Assembly (NCBI RefSeq): GCF_031882575.1
Contig: NZ_CP134772.1
Span: forward strand, 4,644,501-4,708,500
DNA from: Pseudomonas sp. VD-NE ins
GTDB taxonomy: Bacteria; Pseudomonadota; Gammaproteobacteria; Pseudomonadales; Pseudomonadaceae
Length of the DNA stretch: 64,000 nt
Direction of reading: 5' to 3'
A model generated the notes under the pieces. That model saw nothing but the letters and a program-made list of their open reading frames with translations. It did no database searches and was not told where the DNA came from. The position numbers and the translations under genes were made by a program. Below are positions 6,968 through 28,849 of the stretch, piece by piece; position 1 is the first letter of the stretch, and the number at the start of each line of letters is the position of its first letter.

Positions 6968-7858
6968 TCACCACTGCAGCGTGATCCGGCTCTCGAATTC
7001 GCGCTCCTCACCGGTCACCGGGTCGACAAACCGCAGCCCCTGCGCCAGCAGCTTCAGCGGATTGGCGTAATCGTCCTCGACGTCTTTCAACACCTGCGGA
7101 TAGAACGGATCGTTGCAGATGCTCGCCCCCAGCGCAGTCATGTGGACGCGCAGTTGATGTTTCTTGCCAGTCACCGGAAACAAACCATAGCGCCACAGAT
7201 CGCCATGCTTTTCCCGAACTTCCACCGCCGTTTCGGTATTGCTGGCACCGGCGCCTTCCTGCATGCGGAAAAACGGTTCGCCGTCCACCAGACGACTCTT
7301 GTGTACCAAGGGAAAATCCAGATCTGGCAGCGCCGGTGCAATAGCCTCATAGCGCTTGTCGATCTGCCGCGTGGGGAACAGCGACTGATAAGCCGATCGG
7401 GTTTGCGGATTGGCCGAGAAAATGACCAGTCCCGCTGTGTGCCGGTCGATGCGGTGCAGTGGCACCAGGTGAGGATTGTCCAGGCGACGAATCAGCCTGC
7501 GCAACAAGGTTTGCTCAACGTATTCGCCGGCGGGCGTCACCGGCAGAAAATGCGGCTTGTCAGCCACCACCAGATGTTCGTCTGCATACAGGATCGACTC
7601 GACCACCGGGATCGGTTTTTCGTCCGGCACTTCGCGAAAATAGTGAATCCGCAAGCCTTCCTTGTAAGCCAAATCCACCGATATCGGCTGGCCATGGCCG
7701 TCCAGCACGCGTCCCCGAGCGATGCGGTCCAGCCATTGCTCGCGGTCAATGGCGCGGAAATGCTCGCACAGGCAATCGAGTACGGTCAGCCATTTACCGG
7801 GCGGCAGATAAAGTGTGCTCGCCTGATTCTGAGCAGCAGAGAATGTAGATGTGGACAT
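6968..7858 (-). CDS. RluA-family pseudouridine synthase
   Basis: A 296-residue RNA pseudouridine synthase. The catalytic motif HRIDRHTAGLVIF, with the active-site Asp, is near residue 140; ADKPHFLPVTP precedes it and KKHQLRVHM follows, the usual RluA order. The N-terminal part is a short S4-like region. Members of this subfamily modify 23S rRNA or tRNA; the substrate cannot be told from sequence alone. Start ATG at 7858. It is probably monocistronic and converges on the terminator after the lipoprotein gene. Confidence 0.9.
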   Translation of the reverse strand: MSTSTFSAAQNQASTLYLPPGKWLTVLDCLCEHFRAIDREQWLDRIARGRVLDGHGQPISVDLAYKEGLRIHYFREVPDEKPIPVVESILYADEHLVVADKPHFLPVTPAGEYVEQTLLRRLIRRLDNPHLVPLHRIDRHTAGLVIFSANPQTRSAYQSLFPTRQIDKRYEAIAPALPDLDFPLVHKSRLVDGEPFFRMQEGAGASNTETAVEVREKHGDLWRYGLFPVTGKKHQLRVHMTALGASICNDPFYPQVLKDVEDDYANPLKLLAQGLRFVDPVTGEEREFESRITLQW

Positions 7859-7928: not shown

Positions 7929-8246
7929 TCAGGCCGGGATTGTTTTCAGCGCGGCAGCGTCGGTGAATTCCTTGAGCCAGCGCAATACGTCAACTGCATC
8001 CCAGCGGCCCGGATCGTACAAGGCGTAAAGCAATCCCTGATAACCGACCACATCGAGTTGCTTGTGATAACCGGCACGCTGAAACAAGGCCTCGATCTCG
8101 GCAAAGCAGGTATTGAAATGCAGTTTGTTGAAGGGCGTCTTGCCTTCCGTGACCAGCCCGTCCAGGCGCAATTCGAGAACGGCCTCGCGCACCACGTCAA
8201 CCGACATCCGGTTCACGCTGTTCTTCAACTGTTCGACATTGACCAC
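7929..8246 (-). CDS. Unknown protein behind a LexA (SOS) box
   Basis: A 105-residue soluble protein I cannot assign to a family. It is mostly helical, with a charged first half (VDVVREAVLELRLDGLV) and a Trp/Tyr-rich C-terminal part (YALYDPGRWDAVDVLRWL); there is no signal peptide or membrane segment. The GTG start at 8246 has GAGGG seven bases upstream. A near-perfect LexA operator lies 22 bases before the start codon, so the gene is predicted to be induced by DNA damage. No SOS gene with a known function is adjacent, so it appears to be a single-gene SOS unit. Possible roles include replication or division control, but nothing in the sequence proves this. Confidence 0.85.
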   Translation of the reverse strand: MVNVEQLKNSVNRMSVDVVREAVLELRLDGLVTEGKTPFNKLHFNTCFAEIEALFQRAGYHKQLDVVGYQGLLYALYDPGRWDAVDVLRWLKEFTDAAALKTIPA

Positions 8247-8265
8247 GGTTCATCCCTCTGACGCT

Positions 8266-8287
8266 TTACTGTATGAACATACAGTAA
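8266..8287 (-). promoter_or_regulatory. LexA-binding (SOS) box
   Basis: The core CTGTATGAACATACAG (8269-8284) matches the gammaproteobacterial LexA consensus CTGT-N8-ACAG, and the palindrome extends outward to TTACTG/CAGTAA with only the central pair asymmetric. It lies 22 bases upstream of the GTG of the unknown gene at 7929-8246, the correct place to occlude its promoter. The gene on the other side reads away from the site in the same direction, so only one gene is an obvious target. Confidence 0.85.
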
Positions 8288-8356: not shown

Positions 8357-8593
8357 TTAACGCAGAAACGCGACGACTTCATCAGCGCTGAATGGCCAGC
8401 CCAGTTCAGCCCCGGTGTCGATGCGGCGCAACACCGGAATTCGCAGACTGTAAGCTTCGAACCACGTTTCATCGTCAGCGATATCGACCAGTTCAACCAG
8501 CAGGCCATGCTCAACGAAAGGCATCAACTCGGCCTCAGCGACTTCGCACAAATGACACCCAAGGGTGCCGAACAGCTGACATTCAGGAGGCAT
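8357..8593 (-). CDS. Glutaredoxin-family protein (DUF836-like)
   Basis: A 78-residue thioredoxin-fold protein. It begins with a beta strand and the redox motif CHLC at residues 13-16, continues with VELVDIADDE, and contains the cis-Pro loop LRIPVLRR. This corresponds to the small glutaredoxin-like DUF836 family. The motif differs from classical CPYC glutaredoxins, so the partner (glutathione or another thiol) is unknown. It lies upstream of the SOS-box gene on the same strand, but the SOS promoter lies between them, so they need not be co-regulated. Confidence 0.85.
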   Translation of the reverse strand: MPPECQLFGTLGCHLCEVAEAELMPFVEHGLLVELVDIADDETWFEAYSLRIPVLRRIDTGAELGWPFSADEVVAFLR

Positions 8594-28831: not shown

Positions 28832-28849
28832 CCTGTGTGAAAACACAGG
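28832..28849 (+). promoter_or_regulatory. Perfect GAAA-loop hairpin in the alaA leader
   Basis: CCTGTGT and ACACAGG form a seven-bp stem around a GAAA tetraloop, 60 bases upstream of the alaA ATG. The same bases match CTGT-N8-ACAG and so could alternatively be a LexA-like operator, but the inner bases are far from the LexA consensus. A leader RNA hairpin is the simpler reading. Confidence 0.4.

Follow-up and report, generated by a model that had tools for sequence, protein, structure and literature searches.

A conserved LexA operator ahead of a small Pseudomonas gene of the PA0922 family, with a possible link to polymerase V

An operator and a small gene

The locus described here raises a simple question: does a LexA box standing in front of a small gene that resembles no known family mark a genuine SOS gene, and if so, what might that gene do? 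The window, by which we mean the whole 64,000-nucleotide stretch of Pseudomonas sp. VD-NE ins that was analysed, contains the palindrome TTACTGTATGAACATACAGTAA at 8266-8287, which reads directly from the sequence as a perfect LexA operator; a pattern search of the window places its core, CTGTATGAACATACAG, at 8269-8284. After a gap of 22 bp from the core comes a gene on the minus strand, 105 codons long in the ORF list with a GTG start, that runs from 8246 down to 7929. We call it gene X; it is the orthologue of P. aeruginosa PA0922. The first-pass annotation of this DNA had reported a full-consensus LexA box ahead of a small gene, and our analysis reproduced its coordinates, the 105-aa ORF and the 22-bp gap.

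X is flanked upstream by a glutaredoxin-like (DUF836) gene at 8357-8593 on the minus strand (PF05768, E 1.3e-18), for which we make no claim of SOS control, and downstream by an RNA pseudouridine synthase gene at 6968-7858, also on the minus strand (PF00849, E 3.8e-26). The latter starts 70 bp downstream of X on the same strand and no terminator-like site was found between the two, so the earlier description of a single-gene unit is not established and X could be co-transcribed with the pseudouridine synthase gene. X lies directly behind the box in the window, where the UmuD and UmuC genes of a polymerase V operon do not appear.

Is the box more than chance?

Within the window, a match to the bare CTGT-N8-ACAG pattern is no more than chance would give, since there are 2 matches against a mean of 0.75 expected and 19 of 100 shuffles reach as many. 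Across the whole 6.7-Mb genome the same pattern has 85 matches and the reversed control 24. The former count is inflated because a CTGTCAGAGTTGACAG-like palindrome recurs in this genome; the places listed include at least six exact copies of it, and it looks like a repeated element and not like a set of LexA sites. The tighter pattern CTGTAT-N6-ACAG occurs at 15 places in the genome and at 0 for the reversed control, and at four of the 15, the window's box among them, it holds on both strands as CTGTAT-N4-ATACAG. Together with conservation in orthologues, this tighter genome-wide pattern puts the window's box beyond chance. Elsewhere in the genome tight boxes precede lexA, yebG and a radical-SAM gene; a DUF1654 gene has one at its head, one separates a topoisomerase gene from another ORF, and several are near no recognised gene. 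The box of lexA in this genome is of the same type as that of X.

The second consensus match in the window, CTGTGTGAAAACACAG at 28833-28848, precedes two ORFs: an aminotransferase-like one, whose likely start (28909, judged by eye) is about 60 bp away, and an msrB-like one on the opposite strand, about 140 bp away.

Conservation of the operator and spread of the gene

Lack of the box upstream of orthologues had been named beforehand as an observation that would count against an SOS gene; this check was made, and its result does not speak against one. A first draw of 36 Pseudomonas genomes, including the window's own, gave 31 that carry X, and 29 of the 30 loci fetched from them have a full CTGT-N8-ACAG box within 300 bp upstream of the gene. 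Overall the box is present in 120 of 124 loci and the reversed pattern in 1 of 124. Because the 124 loci are redundant (119 are distinct, as five pairs share an identical 700-bp stretch) and rich in close kin (80 are the best 80 of 450 relatives, that is, the nearest), the 30-locus draw gives the fairer figure. Two of the four misses (L029 and L122) belong to a clade with a one-mismatch box, and the other two (L071 and L076) have the box 515 bp upstream; one locus (L121) is counted as box-bearing solely through a probable chance match. The distance from box to gene ranges from 15 to 107 bp across loci, with one probable chance match at 182 bp. In the 102 distinct boxes that have A or T following CTGT, conservation reaches past the core, upstream to TTCGG and TA and on the opposite side to T. 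X therefore has an operator at its promoter that is conserved with the gene, as expected of a member of the LexA regulon.

The gene itself is widespread within the genus. In a larger draw we found it in 259 of 298 Pseudomonas genomes and in three genomes of one sister genus; three genomes from two further genera of the same family lacked it, and it was not found in 368 other genomes of the class. It is under strong purifying selection, with dN/dS between 0.02 and 0.19 in 12 pairs. Over 85 members picked for diversity the invariant residues are Q6, K8, G30, P38, H43, F44, N45, C47, F48, A49 and E50, followed by E52, A53, Q56, R57, G59, D65, V66, V67, Y69, G71, D78 and W82. The conserved core of the protein comprises 96 residues. 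The X of the window matches no Pfam family above the cut-off; a scan to E 1 lists Csm6_6H alone, at E 0.13. The LexA operator is thus real and conserved, and precedes a conserved gene without a recognised family.

The P. aeruginosa orthologue is 71% identical to X over 93% of the protein and has a full LexA box 52 bp upstream; its neighbourhood differs from that of X, with dinB as its divergent neighbour and mprF at a distance of one gene. The gene that diverges from dinB is PA0922, which the accessible part of one paper gives as a member of the LexA regulon, citing Cirz et al. 2006 (PMC8944484). Elsewhere, in sources likewise available in part, PA0922 is up 3.7-fold with hydrogen peroxide, where lexA is up 4.0 (PMC1250226), and up 8.9-fold in a rubredoxin reductase mutant (PMC12431658). 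The available text of two papers puts the number of LexA-regulated genes in P. aeruginosa at about 15 (PMC12796719, PMC13114513), and that of the first names PA1044 and PA1045 as the only ones of 15 known SOS genes that do not respond to UV-C, from which we infer that PA0922 is among the 13 that do. The accessible portions of the open-access literature that mention PA0922 give no function for it. The idea of a new SOS gene of no known family therefore stands in part: X is a real SOS gene and falls in no family, but SOS control of its family is not new, since PA0922 is already in print as a LexA-regulon gene.

UmuD and UmuC at the same locus

In the two loci with the distant box (L071 of P. morbosilactucae and L076 of P. 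chlororaphis 14D6), an S24-family gene lies between the box and X, and the matches of its protein among PDB sequences up to E 0.1 are all UmuD entries, the best at E 0.026. UmuD-like relatives at E 1e-8 are present in 158 of the 298 Pseudomonas genomes, from which the 30 best places were fetched. All eight of the best-scoring places are at the glutaredoxin/pseudouridine-synthase locus, where the UmuD-like gene sits between the box and X and starts 17-19 bp after the end of the box core; the other 22 have no X in range. As the 30 best places alone were fetched, eight is a lower bound: at least 8 of the 259 X-bearing genomes have umuD beside X, and the box followed by X without umuD is the common form. 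The earlier remark that X has no adjacent known SOS gene is accordingly right for the window and wrong for the family, in which umuD stands beside X in eight genomes and umuC in one.

Seven of the eight loci have the order glutaredoxin, box, umuD, X, pseudouridine synthase. The eighth (genome G875, locus L237) has glutaredoxin, box, umuD, umuC, X, pseudouridine synthase; the domains found there are IMS, IMS_C and DUF4113 in UmuC and S24 in UmuD, so in this relative, a single genome, UmuD and UmuC stand behind the box at the same locus, as in a polymerase V operon. Behind the 22 UmuD-like genes away from X, a full-length umuC follows in 20, a fragment in one, and none was found in one short stretch. 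Since umuC follows umuD in 20 of these 22, X takes the usual place of umuC in the seven box-umuD-X loci. The one-box, one-gene unit of the window is one of three forms of the locus, because umuD-X and umuD-umuC-X occupy the same site. Like umuDC operons, these loci are led by a LexA box; they differ in their third gene, X, which has no homology to UmuD or UmuC and mostly stands without them. We did not find a link between the X family and a polymerase V operon in the open-access papers that came up in our searches, where the "third gene" of one paper is imuC, so the polymerase V link seems to be the new part of this work and the PA0922 family itself the known part.

The UmuD-like proteins of the X loci form one clade (support 94/89). 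In most of the sequences compared for this locus type the leaders of umuD and of X have TTCG(G/T)TTACTGTATG in common, and between TTCGG and the box umuD leaders and box-X leaders are alike over much of their length. Relatives of the G875 UmuC number 19 in 17 of 398 genomes, and for 18 of the 19 the surrounding 1.5 kb holds no X. A 63-row tree of the pseudouridine synthase beside the locus splits the umuD-bearing loci into two groups, so that two changes are needed, and leaves G875 apart at an unresolved fork. Because of this split, umuD could have been gained later; the tree is compatible both with one origin followed by repeated loss and with later gains.

On the UmuD alignment we read by eye the positions of two residues of UmuD, the catalytic lysine K97 and the serine S60.

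In the UmuD-like proteins of the X loci (L207-L214) K97 is an arginine in all eight, and S60 is kept in three of eight and is otherwise Asn, Thr or Gly. With K97 replaced and S60 mostly so, these proteins are probably incapable of self-cleavage.

Neither a UmuD-like match (at E 1e-8) nor a UmuC-like match (at E 1e-150) turned up in the window's genome. It has two IMS-family places, neither adjoining X: DinB and a putative ImuB, so assigned because an ORF that by eye resembles a DnaE-type polymerase follows it. Given that no UmuD-like protein is detected at E 1e-8, X must act here without UmuDC.

What the product of X might do

Our preferred reading, to which we give a probability of roughly 40%, is that X encodes an SOS-induced accessory of translesion synthesis that persists in genomes without UmuDC. 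LexA would repress X through the operator 22 bp upstream, and DNA damage, by way of RecA-driven cleavage of LexA, would switch it on. The product, small, genus-restricted and with no recognised catalytic domain, would most likely bind a partner in damage-tolerant DNA synthesis. Because one locus takes three forms, with box-umuD-umuC-X, box-umuD-X and box-X distributed over different Pseudomonas lineages, X may be, or may have been recruited as, a companion of polymerase V. Where X stands alone behind the box it would act on the remaining translesion proteins, with DinB, ImuB with its DnaE2 partner, the sliding clamp and the RecA filament as candidate targets. The gene order suggests that X helps or tunes, or restrains, damage-tolerant DNA copying; both the translesion role and any partner we infer from genome comparison. 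The first-pass annotation had offered a division inhibitor or a polymerase modulator as examples of a role; we found nothing in support of the former, and the link to a polymerase, genomic in kind, favours the latter. The PA0922 family thereby gains its first functional context, polymerase V, and the guess can now be tested.

Somewhat less probable, though a serious competitor, is that X is an independent SOS effector, for example an inhibitor of division or growth or a stress protein, behind whose operator umuD or umuDC was inserted later. If the insertion was secondary, the neighbours say nothing about the work of X. That box-X without umuD far outnumbers the other forms, that P. aeruginosa and other clades carry box-X in other neighbourhoods, and that X is missing near nearly all of the UmuC relatives fit this account well. 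It accommodates less easily the UmuD-like genes at X loci, which are one clade at one site and always between operator and X, and X in the window matches neither SulA nor any other division-inhibitor family in Pfam.

A more specific version of the accessory reading appears unlikely to us: X would belong to a Pseudomonas polymerase V system as its dedicated third component, the UmuD of that system having lost the residues for self-cleavage, and across most of the genus X would since have turned into a free-standing SOS accessory by which the other translesion polymerases are retargeted or restrained.

We are a little more doubtful still that X serves the SOS network as a small regulator, induced by damage and tuning other promoters or UmuD-family proteins in the manner of DdrR. 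As described in the accessible parts of its literature, DdrR, the Acinetobacter co-repressor that works with UmuDAb, resembles X in being small, genus-restricted, part of the damage response and linked to a UmuD homologue; it differs in that Acinetobacter has no LexA, whereas LexA control is the rule for X. Many GenBank records of X bear the name "transcriptional regulator", and the linkage to UmuD-like genes also agrees with such a role, but X persists where those genes are absent, and in the window it matches no curated HTH family in Pfam. The winged-helix domain at the C-terminus of RPA32 is a protein-binding domain of repair complexes, and the N-terminal part of X shows a weak likeness to it (PDB profile E 0.4-0.97). 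RPA_C is weakly matched in 12 of the 85 X members, at best at E 0.0074, but Csm6_6H, Laminin_B and SAM_PNT score as well. The resemblance reaches no useful threshold and serves only as a lead. Structure prediction of X was poor (mean pLDDT 51 and 62). Another small SOS protein with its own box is YebG, whose gene in the window's genome has one, but its family (PF07130) is not matched by X.

Which gene owns the box beside dinB

The P. aeruginosa box, 333 bp from the start of dinB and 52 bp from that of PA0922, is separated from dinB by a tRNA-Met gene. The dinB of the window's genome, identified by Pfam, is near two tRNA-Met genes and an ORF that by eye is mprF, and the 3.4 kb read at this locus contain no X and no full box. 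The position of the box beyond the tRNA-Met gene, and the dinB locus without box or X, favour PA0922 as the owner of the box, as already hinted at in the accessible part of PMC8944484. LexA control of dinB is disputed in the available text of PMC8944484 and PMC13114513; activity of the dinB promoter rises with MMS according to the portion of PMC5261740 available, and PA0923 (dinB) is up 3.7-fold with ciprofloxacin in that of PMC13114513. Damage induction of dinB could be independent of the box on the X side, and our comparison bears on the printed dispute in that the P. aeruginosa box is the nearer to PA0922. One could cite this dispute, the MMS response and the missing terminator downstream of X in favour of X as a bystander of an operator that mainly serves the neighbouring gene, which would be dinB in P. 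aeruginosa and the pseudouridine synthase in the window. That reading is very improbable and largely refuted, because the box stays with X in at least three gene neighbourhoods and dinB is either distant from it or boxless.

Other genes at the locus

Twenty of the 39 X-less genomes were examined for the pseudouridine synthase, and 10 had the glutaredoxin gene in range. One of the 10 has 60 bp between the two genes and the other nine have 727-927 bp; the full box is absent from 9 of these 10 readable intervals. Several X-less intervals (L187, L189, L190, L194 and others) hold what by eye is a Cu/Zn superoxide-dismutase-like gene. A 164-aa protein recorded for the plant Ensete ventricosum (P0034) combines X with a glutaredoxin-like domain label and is probably bacterial contamination. 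In L013 a 66-aa ORF of no clear family lies between the glutaredoxin gene and the box, and in L019 the same place is taken by a peptidase M15 gene (PF08291), of which there are look-alikes, judged by eye, in L021 and L022.
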